Below, piece after piece: positions 5,176 to 13,156 of a stretch of 64,000 nt of DNA; position 1 is the first letter of the stretch; every line of letters begins with the position of its first letter. Position numbers and translations under genes: made by a program. The stretch is from Mycoplana azooxidifex (lineage in GTDB: Bacteria > Pseudomonadota > Alphaproteobacteria > Rhizobiales > Rhizobiaceae): NCBI RefSeq assembly GCF_014196765.1, contig NZ_JACIEE010000005.1, forward strand, positions 62,001 to 126,000, given 5' to 3'. Below the pieces are notes generated by a model. That model searched no databases, was not told the DNA's origin, and saw only the letters and a program-made list of their open reading frames with translations.

Positions 5176-5241
5176 TCCGTTCCGGCGCGCGGCTCAGCCG
5201 TGCGCCCTTCCACATATCATGTTGACAGGGAGAGACCCGAA

Positions 5242-6252
5242 ATGACCGTGAAAGTTGCCATCAACGGATTTGGCCGCATCGGCCGCAACGTCCTGCGCGC
5301 GATCGTCGAATCCGGCCGCACCGACATCGAAGTCGTGGCGATCAACGACCTTGGTCCGGTCGAGACCAATGCCCACCTGCTGCGCTACGATTCGATCCAC
5401 GGCAAGTTCCCGGCCGAGGTGAAGGTCGAGGGCGACACCATCACCGTCGGCGGCGGCAAGCCGATCAAGGTCACCGCAATCAAGGATCCGGCCACCCTTC
5501 CCCACAAGGAACTGGGTGTCGACATCGCCCTGGAATGCACCGGCATCTTCACGGCACGCGACAAGGCGGCCCTGCACCTGCAGGCCGGCGCCAAGCGCGT
5601 CATCGTCTCGGCCCCGGCCGACGGCGCCGACCTGACCGTCGTCTTCGGCGTCAACAACGACCAGTTGACCAAGGAGCACCTGGTCATCTCCAACGCGTCG
5701 TGCACCACCAACTGCCTGGTTCCGGTGGTCAAGGTTCTCGACGACGTGGTCGGCATCGACCACGGCTTCATGACCACGATCCACTCCTACACCGGCGACC
5801 AGCCGACGCTGGACACGATGCACAAGGATCTCTACCGCGCCCGCGCGGCAGCGCTGTCGATGATCCCGACCTCGACGGGTGCTGCCAAGGCCGTCGGCCT
5901 CGTGCTGCCGCACCTCAAGGGCAAGCTCGACGGCACCTCGATCCGCGTGCCGACCCCGAACGTCTCGGTCGTCGACTTCAAGTTCGTCGCCAAGCGCGAC
6001 ACCACGGTCCAGGAAATCAACGACGCCATCAAGGCCGCCGCCAACGGCGCCCTGAAGGGCATCCTCGGCTACACCGACGAGCCGCTGGTCTCGCGCGACT
6101 TCAACCATGACAGCCATTCGTCGATCTTCGCGATCGACCAGACCAAGGTCATGGAAGGCAAGTTCGTCCGTATCCTCTCCTGGTACGACAACGAATGGGG
6201 CTTCTCCAACCGCATGGCCGACACCGCCGTCGCCTTCGCCAAGCTGATCTGA
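5242..6252 (+). CDS. gap: Glyceraldehyde-3-phosphate dehydrogenase (type I)
   Basis: A 336-residue NAD-type GAPDH oxidising glyceraldehyde 3-phosphate to 1,3-bisphosphoglycerate. The Rossmann start G-F-G-R-I-G-R-N is at residues 8-15, and the catalytic motif S-N-A-S-C-T-T-N-C places the nucleophile at Cys154. The C-terminal [11 protein letters not shown] motif is intact. The ATG at 5242 is chosen because it gives the conserved [10 protein letters not shown] start and has a GGGAGAG site just upstream; the frame is open 14 codons further back without support. It lies between tkt and pgk. Confidence 0.97.
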
Positions 6253-10762: not shown

Positions 10763-12073
10763 ATGCGAAATAACCTCGTCTCCGTCTTCGCGCTTCTGCT
10801 CGGCACCCTGTTTCTGTTCCTCGGCAACGGCCTGCACGGCCTCTTGCTTCCCGTCCGCGGCGCGTTCGAAGGCTACCCGACGACCCTGCTCGGCCTGATC
10901 GGAACCTCCTGGGCCTCCGGCTTCGTACTCGGCTGCCTGCTGGCGCCGAAGGTGGTCAAGCGCATCGGCCATGTGCGCGCCTTTTCCGGCTTCGCCTCGC
11001 TGATCGCGATCATCGCACTTCTGACCGGCATCCTCGTCGATCCGTTCTGGTGGGTGGCGCTGCGCGCCGTCACCGGCTTCTCCATTGCCGGCACCTCGAT
11101 GATCATCGAAAGCTGGCTGAACGAGCGGGCGTCGAACGAGAGCCGTGGCGTCGTCTTTTCGCTCTATATCGCCATCACCCTGTTCGGCGTCGTCGGCGGC
11201 CAGATGATGGTGACCCTCGGCGACATCGAAACGCCCATCCTCTTCATGGTCGCGGGCATCCTCTATTGCTTCGCCATGCTGCCGACGACGCTGTCGACCG
11301 CGGCCTCCCCCCAGCCGCTCAAGCAGGTCAGCCTCGACATCCCCACCCTCTTCCGCACCTCGCCCGTCGCCTGCGTCGGCATCGTGCTGATCGGGATCTC
11401 CAACGGCGCCTTCGGAACGCTGGGCGCCGTCTTCGGTGCCGAGGCCGGGTTGGCCTCCAGCACGATCGCGATGATGATGAGCGTGACGATCTTCGCCGGC
11501 GCCGTCATGCAACTGCCCGCCGGCCGCCTCTCCGACCGCGTCGACCGGCGCTATGTGCTGGCGGCGCTGGCGGCGGTGGCGGCCCTGGCCGGCCTGCTGA
11601 TGTTCGTCCTGCAGCCGGTCTCGGTCATTCCGCTGCTGATCGTCGTCGCCATCTACGGCGCTGCGGCCAATGCGCTCTATCCGATCGCGGTCTCGCATGC
11701 GAACGACTTTGCAAGCTCGGAGGATTTCGTGAAGGTGTCCGGCGGCCTGCTGCTGCTCTATGGCGTCGGCACGATCATCGGGCCGACGCTCGGCGGCCCG
11801 GTCATGACCTCCGCGGGTCCCTATTCGCTGTTCGTCGTCACCTGCGTCTCCCACCTCCTGATCACCGCTTATGCGATGTTCCGCAGCAAGCGCCGCGCCG
11901 CCCTTCCCGCCAGCGAGCGCGAAAACTACACCACCATCAATCCCGGCACGCTGACGACACCGGAAAGCCTGCGCATGTCGCCGCGCGCCAGCCAGGCCGG
12001 GAGCGCGCCGGAAGCCGGCCCGCAAGTCGACCCACAGGGCGACCCACAGGCCACGACGGAGGAAGAGCGATGA
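10763..12073 (+). CDS. MFS transporter (YfkF/YcaD-type)
   Basis: A 436-residue major-facilitator protein with about twelve transmembrane helices. The loop between helices 2 and 3 (about 55-75) is G-C-L-L-A-P-K-V-V-K-R-I-G-H-V-R, and a second MFS signature occurs after helix 8 (G-R-L-S-D-R-V-D-R-R-Y near 250). After residue 385 there is a hydrophilic tail rich in Ala, Ser, Gly, Gln and Pro. It resembles the uncharacterised YcaD/YfkF drug-efflux-like branch; the substrate is unknown. Its stop overlaps the start of the DUF1192 gene (ATGA), so the two are co-translated. Confidence 0.85.
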   Translation: MRNNLVSVFALLLGTLFLFLGNGLHGLLLPVRGAFEGYPTTLLGLIGTSWASGFVLGCLLAPKVVKRIGHVRAFSGFASLIAIIALLTGILVDPFWWVALRAVTGFSIAGTSMIIESWLNERASNESRGVVFSLYIAITLFGVVGGQMMVTLGDIETPILFMVAGILYCFAMLPTTLSTAASPQPLKQVSLDIPTLFRTSPVACVGIVLIGISNGAFGTLGAVFGAEAGLASSTIAMMMSVTIFAGAVMQLPAGRLSDRVDRRYVLAALAAVAALAGLLMFVLQPVSVIPLLIVVAIYGAAANALYPIAVSHANDFASSEDFVKVSGGLLLLYGVGTIIGPTLGGPVMTSAGPYSLFVVTCVSHLLITAYAMFRSKRRAALPASERENYTTINPGTLTTPESLRMSPRASQAGSAPEAGPQVDPQGDPQATTEEER

Positions 12074-12258
12074 GCATCAACGACGAAGACCGCGCCGCCC
12101 GCAAGGTGGCCCACGAGATCGGCTGCGACCTGTCGCTGCTTTCGGTGGACGAGTTGGCGCTACGCGTCGAACTCCTGAAGGCGGAGATCGCAAGGCTGGA
12201 GGAGGAGAAAGCCCGCAAGGGCGCCAGCCGGTCGGCCGCGGAGAAGCTGTTCCGCTGA
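12070..12258 (+). CDS. DUF1192 small protein
   Basis: A 62-residue acidic/basic protein with the DUF1192 signature: a short N-terminal segment, then L-S-V-D-E-L-A-L-R-V-E-L-L-K-A-E-I-A-R-L forming a coiled coil (about 25-50) and a basic C-terminus ending A-E-K-L-F. The family is confined to alphaproteobacteria and its function is unknown. The start overlaps the MFS stop by four bases. It lies just upstream of the CtrA-controlled small RNA and rcdA. Confidence 0.85.
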   Translation: MSINDEDRAARKVAHEIGCDLSLLSVDELALRVELLKAEIARLEEEKARKGASRSAAEKLFR

Positions 12259-12316
12259 CCTGCGCGCCGGCCGCGTGGGCAAAAGCCGAGCGACGAAGAG
12301 CGATCCGGCATCACAG

Positions 12317-12331
12317 TTAACCGGGCGTTAA
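12317..12331 (+). promoter_or_regulatory. CtrA box 1 (TTAA-N7-TTAA)
   Basis: TTAA, seven bases, TTAA: an exact match to the alphaproteobacterial CtrA consensus. TATTAA at 12343-12348 is suitably placed as a -10 box for a start near 12355, which would make CtrA an activator of the small RNA that follows. Confidence 0.75.
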
Positions 12332-12354
12332 GCTTCATCAGCTATTAATCGCAT

Positions 12355-12455
12355 GTCCGGATCCGTCCGGACTCAGACATTTTCGCCGCTTGGGGAATGG
12401 GTCTGATTTTCTCCCTGTTTTACCTTGAGAGCCGCTTTCCCGCGGCTCTTTTTTT
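12355..12455 (+). ncRNA. Candidate CtrA-dependent trans-acting small RNA
   Basis: About 100 bases between CtrA box 1 and a strong terminator. Predicted structure: hairpin 1 (GTCCGG/CCGGAC, starting near 12355), hairpin 2 (TCAGAC near 12371 with GTCTGA near 12400), an unpaired pyrimidine-rich linker containing TTCTCCCTG near 12406-12414, then the terminator hairpin with a seven-U tail. The linker is complementary to Shine-Dalgarno sequences. This layout is typical of Hfq-dependent rhizobial small RNAs. Cell-cycle small RNAs are known in Sinorhizobium (EcpR1, GspR), but I cannot assign this one to either from sequence memory. A 17-codon frame starting at 12353 is present and probably meaningless. 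Confidence 0.6.
12429..12455 (+). terminator. Rho-independent terminator of the candidate small RNA
   Basis: GAGCCGC pairs with GCGGCTC around a TTTCCC loop and is followed by seven T residues (12449-12455). One of the clearest intrinsic terminators in the window. Confidence 0.9.
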
Positions 12456-12500
12456 GTGCCCTTCCCACCTGTCCCAAGCCGTTGTAAAGAATTGTGGAGA

Positions 12501-12515
12501 TTAACCCTTTCTTAA
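12501..12515 (+). promoter_or_regulatory. CtrA box 2, upstream of rcdA
   Basis: A second exact TTAA-N7-TTAA, located after the terminator and 122 bases before the rcdA start. Direct CtrA control of rcdA fits the known role of RcdA in CtrA proteolysis in the Caulobacter/Sinorhizobium circuits. Confidence 0.75.
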
Positions 12516-12637
12516 GATCGTGCTTGCGCGAAATGGGCTATGCCTCCATCGTACCTGCATGAAACCCCGACCAGTGGAACCCTTCTCCACCGATGCGGGT
12601 TACCTGAATTGTGATGCGTTTAACGGGAAATGGGGCC

Positions 12638-13156
12638 ATGTCCGAAAGAGGATTGAATACCGTCAGCTTCGCTGGCCACGTCGCCACCTCGTCGCAGTTC
12701 AAGAACCTCTATGCCGAGGGCATGGGTCTGGTCGAGGAAACGGCAACCTATCTCGACGGCCCCGGCCGCCAGGCCGCCAAGGTGCTGCCGCGCATGGCCT
12801 CCGTCCTCTACGCTGCCGAATCCATGCGGTTGACGACCCGCCTGATGCAGATGGCGTCCTGGCTGCTGCTGCAGCGCGCCGTCAACAACGGCGAGATGAC
12901 CCGCGACCAGGTCCTTTCGGAGAAGAGCAAGGTCCGCCTCGACGGCTTCAATGTCGATCGCGCCGCGCCCGGCTGGAACGACCTGCCGGAATCCTTCCGC
13001 GACCTCGTCGAACGCTCGCTGCGCCTGCAGAACCGCGTCGCCCTGCTGGACCGCGAGATGTATCGCCCGCAGGAAACCCAGCCCTTCGTCCCGGACAACC
13101 AGAATAGCGTCCAGGCCCAGCTCAGCCTGCTGCAGACCGCCTTCAGCAACACTTGA
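12638..13156 (+). CDS. rcdA: RcdA/DUF1465 family, regulator of CtrA degradation
   Basis: A 172-residue helical protein of the DUF1465 family. In Caulobacter RcdA works with CpdR and PopA to deliver CtrA to ClpXP at the cell pole. Recognisable segments are the helix with F-K-N-L-Y-A-E-G-M-G-L-V-E-E-T-A near residue 22, the long helix A-E-S-M-R-L-T-T-R-L-M-Q-M-A-S-W-L-L near 67, and D-R-E-M-Y near 137, with a disordered tail. The ATG at 12638 is preferred because GGGAAATGGGG precedes it; an upstream start at 12614 would add eight residues. Regulation by CtrA is indicated by the box at 12501. A terminator follows at 13184. Confidence 0.85.
   Translation: MSERGLNTVSFAGHVATSSQFKNLYAEGMGLVEETATYLDGPGRQAAKVLPRMASVLYAAESMRLTTRLMQMASWLLLQRAVNNGEMTRDQVLSEKSKVRLDGFNVDRAAPGWNDLPESFRDLVERSLRLQNRVALLDREMYRPQETQPFVPDNQNSVQAQLSLLQTAFSNT

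Follow-up and report, generated by a model that had tools for sequence, protein, structure and literature searches.

A 64,000-base stretch of the Mycoplana azooxidifex genome (hereafter, the window) contains, at positions 12353-12455 of the plus strand, a gene for a small RNA (sRNA) that by sequence comparison is a homologue of SmelC671/Sm84, a known RNA of Sinorhizobium meliloti, and that belongs with Rfam family RF02356 (BjrC1505). From the computed gene, family, covarying structure, linker core and upstream CtrA box, we infer, with a probability of about 70%, that this sRNA is activated by CtrA and acts through its linker on ribosome-binding sites. The sRNA itself was already known; the present analysis adds that a CtrA box is conserved with it, how far the family extends, that it does not depend on rcdA and that SmelC671 and BjrC1505 are one family. 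CtrA is known mainly via the proteins under its control. If our reading is correct, this sRNA, present mostly as a single copy and preceded by a CtrA box in almost all order genomes examined, would be a shared post-transcriptional arm of the cell cycle in the order Rhizobiales, covering symbionts as well as plant- and animal-associated bacteria, and an RNA that is conserved but has had no known role would gain a named regulator.

Locus, structure and identity of the sRNA

The sRNA gene lies downstream of a DUF1192 gene (12070-12258) and upstream of rcdA (12638-13156), with all three on the plus strand, and the same arrangement on one strand is found in S. meliloti Ak57, where blastn located the same RNA between the DUF1192 and DUF1465 genes. 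That the adjoining gene is rcdA, as had been proposed in the original prediction, was borne out, since its product, the protease adaptor RcdA, scored 210.7 bits against the NCBIfam equivalog NF051867 (cut-off 170) and also matched Pfam DUF1465. The Ak57 record (CP090106.1; L026 and L027) is titled plasmid pSymB, is 3.7 Mb long and holds rpmE, gap and ctrA; it is probably a mislabelled chromosome. A 6S RNA gene (RF00013, 76.3 bits) was also observed on the minus strand of the window at 1972-2130. It lies upstream of the sRNA at a distance of ~10.2 kb in the window, 12.8 kb in Ak57 and 14.2 kb by Rm1021 coordinates, a shift of 1.3 kb from one S. meliloti strain to the other.

The sRNA begins with hairpin 1 (7 bp, 12355-12372) and hairpin 2 (12373-12406), the latter lineage-specific in sequence, followed by a pyrimidine-rich, unpaired linker of 20 nt (12407-12426) that contains the word TTCTCCCTG, and by an intrinsic terminator (12427-12455) consisting of a stem-loop (12427-12450) and seven T (12449-12455). 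Its 5' end was placed at 12353 using the 100-nt length of the S. meliloti RNA and covariance model R1, which was built from 26 seed sequences and covers nothing but the transcript. Folding of 12353-12455 gave -43.0 kcal/mol, a value that none of 200 shuffles reached (z -4.8), in agreement with the two hairpins, linker and seven-T terminator originally predicted. Terminator-like sites by themselves are not rare, as a scan of 12200-12700 found 1 against 0.8 expected. At the junction of the two hairpins (12370-12374) is a GANTC site, GACTC, the methylation motif of CcrM, which is present in S. meliloti too.

Of the 297 order genomes, 256 were matched by model R1, with two hits in eight of these and a single hit in the remainder; in a class sample it matched 52 of 240 genomes, three of which were from the order. 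Fourteen of its 26 seeds came from a pattern search that required the CtrA box, and the modelled columns leave the box out. Among 98 aligned homologues, compensatory changes occurred at all 13 modelled pairs (5/5 in hairpin 1 and 8/8 in the terminator, hairpin 2 being outside the count), and 97.7% of cells were paired versus 26-48% with the partner slid, in an alignment fitted to this same structure. Within the linker core, CTCCCTGTT (12411-12419), the letters CTCCCTG were identical in 98/98 homologues. Taken together, the sequences support a small-RNA gene that is conserved and carries a terminator of its own, and they contradict the non-conservation of linker and hairpins that the original prediction had named as telling against it. 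Apparent tandem copies were seen in L313 (7536-7561 and 7736-7761, 200 bases apart), and of the three R1 hits in genome G528, two are separated by 198 bases.

In S. meliloti, sm84 was described as lying between SMc03988 and SMc03989 on the strand of both genes, and a Northern blot showed a signal of ~80 nt (Valverde et al., 2008; PMC2573895), and SmelC671 was mapped by RNA-seq to 2986421-2986520, a length of 100 nt (Schluter et al., 2010; PMC2873474, Table 4). The hallmark of SmelC671 is a long unpaired domain with CUCCCUGU, situated between a variable hairpin part and the 3' terminator hairpin, and its counterpart in R. etli is ReC71 (Reinkensmeier et al.; PMC3927594). The window sRNA has this unpaired CUCCCUGU domain before its terminator hairpin, as judged by its fold and by the invariant CTCCCTG, and its synteny reproduces the one-strand position between SMc03988 and SMc03989; from the synteny of Ak57 and the window, SMc03989 would be rcdA. 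Gene order, strand, linker, terminator and a length of ~100 nt are thus features that the window sRNA shares with SmelC671/Sm84 and ReC71. Whereas the original prediction had left the sRNA unmatched, it is a homologue of the already known SmelC671/Sm84; the absence of a transcript, also named there as telling against the gene, is countered by the homologous S. meliloti transcript reported from Northern blots and RNA-seq. Two other S. meliloti sRNAs, GspR (SmelC775; SMc03844-SMc03845) and EcpR1 (SmelC291; divK-pleD/rpmG), are likewise rhizobial, trans-encoded and tied to the cell cycle, but were rejected as identities on the basis of their loci.

The Rfam search suggested with the original prediction led to family RF02356, although the window scored below its threshold: the match was full-length at 30.3 bits (E 6e-4, permissive search of 451 bases) versus a gathering score of 50, and a scan of the window at the gathering threshold reported 6S RNA alone and no RF02356. 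At threshold, RF02356 matched four of the five relatives scanned over its full length and gave no hit on S. meliloti (L026). A search with RF02356 found no match in 14 control genomes, Caulobacter vibrioides included. The window and S. meliloti RNAs differ from BjrC1505 in hairpin 2 and in the linker flank. Model R1, which has both types among its seeds, covers the window and the RF02356 members that pass threshold with E-values of 2e-12 and better. By this comparison SmelC671 and BjrC1505 form one family, a unity that the present study adds.

Conservation of the CtrA box

An exact CtrA box, TTAA-N7-TTAA (TTAACCGGGCGTTAA), is located at 12317-12331, with its 5' base ~36 nt before the inferred start, and a -10-like TATTAA is present at 12343-12348; both had been predicted. 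Exact boxes occur twice in the 64,000 bases, with 0.01 expected from 100 shuffles, and both lie in the DUF1192-rcdA gap. The second (12501-12515), nearer rcdA, was absent from the earlier description. A scan of 12200-12700 for a canonical sigma-70 -35/-10 pair found none.

Across the order, the box followed after 65-95 nt by CTCCCTGTT was found in 80 of 297 genomes, versus one match for a reversed control pattern. The box was then scored in 108 genomes of the order for which R1 hits stood among the matches listed; these derive from the 30 best hits and 76 stretches hand-picked for family spread with the box-pattern results already in view, with L265 dropped because the script located no core motif in it, and with the addition of G000, G066 and G106. 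At least seven of the eight half-site bases were present upstream of the sRNA in 104 of these 108 genomes, and the position of the box varied little, its first base lying 84-103 nt ahead of the core. The same test on a stretch of equal size further upstream succeeded in 3/108. Since the region is A/T-rich, other controls at the 7/8 level were not empty: spacings of 4, 5, 6, 8, 9 and 10 gave 25, 22, 24, 11, 23 and 29 of 108, respectively, and permuted half-sites gave 1 to 47, the maximum being ATTA. Exact TTAA-N7-TTAA, however, was found in 49/108, compared with 0-4 when the spacing was changed and 0-7 when the half-sites were permuted. A good box was missing in 4/108 genomes, among the matches listed, and in some weak hits outside the order. 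The box nearer rcdA reached at least 7/8 in 33 of 106 order genomes, versus 5 in one shuffle (this count used longer stretches, each shuffled once). Because these levels are 104/108 and 33/106, the sRNA box is, by this measure, the better conserved of the two. As for the RNA driven by CtrA in the original prediction, the box stands as a conserved element next to rcdA, and control by CtrA itself is a prediction from sequence comparison, which supports it strongly.

The Rfam model extends over the promoter box and assigns it base pairs, as if it were RNA (L172, L203), and misses the S. meliloti type at threshold. Were the model right, TTAA-N7-TTAA would be part of the RNA and not a promoter site, a reading we consider very improbable. 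The box and the RNA through to the last base of the T-run would together measure 138 nt in S. meliloti, whereas SmelC671 measured 100 nt by RNA-seq (PMC2873474), and several 5' pairs of the model are broken in both alignments shown. Moreover, the half-site columns are conserved at 79-100% but the spacer columns at 41-67%, except for the first base (C, 78%).

Independence from rcdA and relation to published CtrA data

In the order, rcdA follows the sRNA on the same strand in 106 of the 108 genomes, among the matches listed, and in 30/30 loci of the pattern search. This constancy, and a report of several start sites for agrobacterial rcdA, together with a possible CtrA site (PMC10469942), would suit a different reading, namely that the RNA is a terminated leader of rcdA, with CtrA acting on rcdA through the sRNA promoter and the terminator serving as an attenuator. 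Loci beyond the order speak against it. There, 49 class genomes had an R1 hit and 27 had loci, of which 26 were counted after L231 was dropped, weak hits possibly including false ones; the box was kept in 20/26 and rcdA was downstream in 10/26, and 12 of the 16 genomes without rcdA downstream retained the box. A pattern scan of named contigs added 32 loci with 33 matches, mostly from Sneathiella, Rhodospirillaceae and unplaced alphaproteobacteria, plus one Minwuiaceae and one record named Rhizobiales. All 33 matches had at least 7/8 box bases (23 were exact), versus 1/31 in a stretch 80 nt further upstream. In five of the 33, among which two form a tandem pair, rcdA lies downstream, and in nine a metY-like gene does; the 28 without rcdA keep the box. 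Since the box is kept where rcdA is not downstream (12/16 genomes, 28/33 matches), these comparisons indicate that it goes with the RNA rather than with rcdA, and that the rcdA neighbourhood is old, yet not required. The leader reading is also at odds with the conservation of the terminator through compensatory changes and with the unchanged expression of rcdA on CtrA depletion in S. meliloti (PMC4433202), and we regard it as unlikely. In L205, L208, L209 and L213, with and without rcdA, the upstream minus-strand gene looked alike by eye (quinone oxidoreductase-like starts) and is perhaps an older neighbour of the sRNA.

The position of the box fits activation by CtrA. In Caulobacter, the 5' base of the full CtrA motif lies near -35 in genes that follow CtrA levels, half-sites elsewhere accompany repression, and six non-coding RNAs have a CtrA motif with ChIP support (PMC4287350). 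The 5' base of the window box is at ~-36 from the inferred start, which by analogy would place it in the activating position. In S. meliloti, ChIP-seq detected CtrA bound before rcdA, and rcdA was unchanged when CtrA was depleted (PMC4433202); therefore, this binding may serve the sRNA promoter, which would explain in a simple way why CtrA binds there and yet leaves rcdA unaffected. One of the agrobacterial rcdA starts could similarly be the start of the sRNA. A comparable case, as far as its description goes, is CcnA of Caulobacter crescentus, an sRNA with an upstream CtrA box whose levels follow CtrA; CcnA, however, is 182 nt long, lies at the replication origin, a locus unlike that of the window sRNA, and acts on ctrA and gcrA.

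Several points could be held against activation. It may be the second box on which the S. meliloti ChIP-seq summit falls; for sm84, a sigma-70 promoter was put forward (Valverde et al., 2008; PMC2573895); and the table of a 2020 review names no regulator for SmelC671. With the repression that accompanies half-sites at other positions in Caulobacter (PMC4287350), these would accord with a box that is repressive, or with binding before rcdA that concerns the second box alone, so that CtrA would not activate the sRNA. We judge this improbable, given that the full motif stands ~36 nt before the inferred start, the position of activation in Caulobacter, and that the second box is less conserved (33/106). 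The open-access literature searched yielded no CtrA link, function or target for SmelC671/Sm84, and the link of SmelC671/BjrC1505 with CtrA appears to be new.

We favour, then, activation of the sRNA by CtrA. CtrA would bind 12317-12331 at the -35 region and turn on transcription of the sRNA, probably late in the cell cycle, and transcription would end at the terminator, before rcdA. On a broader scale, it seems reasonably likely, if less so than the reading of the window itself, that SmelC671/BjrC1505 has long been an RNA output of CtrA in Alphaproteobacteria and predates the tie to rcdA, that CtrA drives it in other lineages and in the greater part of the order, and that what CtrA binds before rcdA in S. 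meliloti, with no effect on rcdA, is the sRNA promoter.

The linker and candidate targets

The linker word CUCCCUGUU is complementary to the Shine-Dalgarno-like AACAGGGAG, and for this reason the sRNA most likely acts by keeping ribosomes from binding, by analogy with the AbcR and NfeR1 sRNAs, which have such motifs and block ribosome binding (PMC7143759). The sRNA would thus pair through its unpaired linker with the ribosome-binding sites of several mRNAs and lower their translation. In the window's own genome, ACAGGGAG preceded ATG at 30 places versus 5 for the reversed pattern, an excess that is no proof of targets because the word resembles a Shine-Dalgarno site. When AACAGGGAG before ATG was searched in 12 genomes or records, only three groups of similar downstream proteins emerged, by eye aldehyde dehydrogenases and transporter-type proteins, and none of the groups was spread over the order. 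The 12-mer ACAGGGAGGCGT, searched in 20 genomes, found the sRNA gene itself in each and otherwise scattered sites (30 of 32 places read).

The original prediction had suggested a target search that included the ctrA and gcrA leaders, and pairing with these was not consistently good in six genomes or records. In the window's own genome, the ctrA leader gave -11.2 and the gcrA leader -14.8 kcal/mol, whereas 56 window ORFs, a background that includes doubtful ORFs, had a median of -11.7 and reached -22.6 at the lowest. The best value from a relative, -19.6 kcal/mol for gcrA of G305, would rank fourth, and the six genomes disagree; the window linker was used for all of them.

Seed-word and leader-pairing searches found no conserved target common to lineages, and the targets of the sRNA may vary from lineage to lineage, like the linker flanks. 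Upstream of cdnL (CarD family), the leader contained ACAGGGAG in four of the five Rhizobiaceae tested (L391, L389, L388 and L392) and in 0/7 genomes tested outside this family; cdnL was also found in G305 by the AACAGGGAG search and in the window's own genome with a shorter seed. The leader of gap (GAPDH) contains ACAGGGAGA at window positions 5225-5233 and in S. meliloti, and its pairing energy was the second-lowest of the 56 window ORFs; CAGGGAG preceded gap in only 6/30 genomes. The ribosome-binding site of gap in the window (5225-5244) reads TGACAGGGAGAGACCCG, which is complementary to the sRNA linker, and it is the same in S. meliloti.
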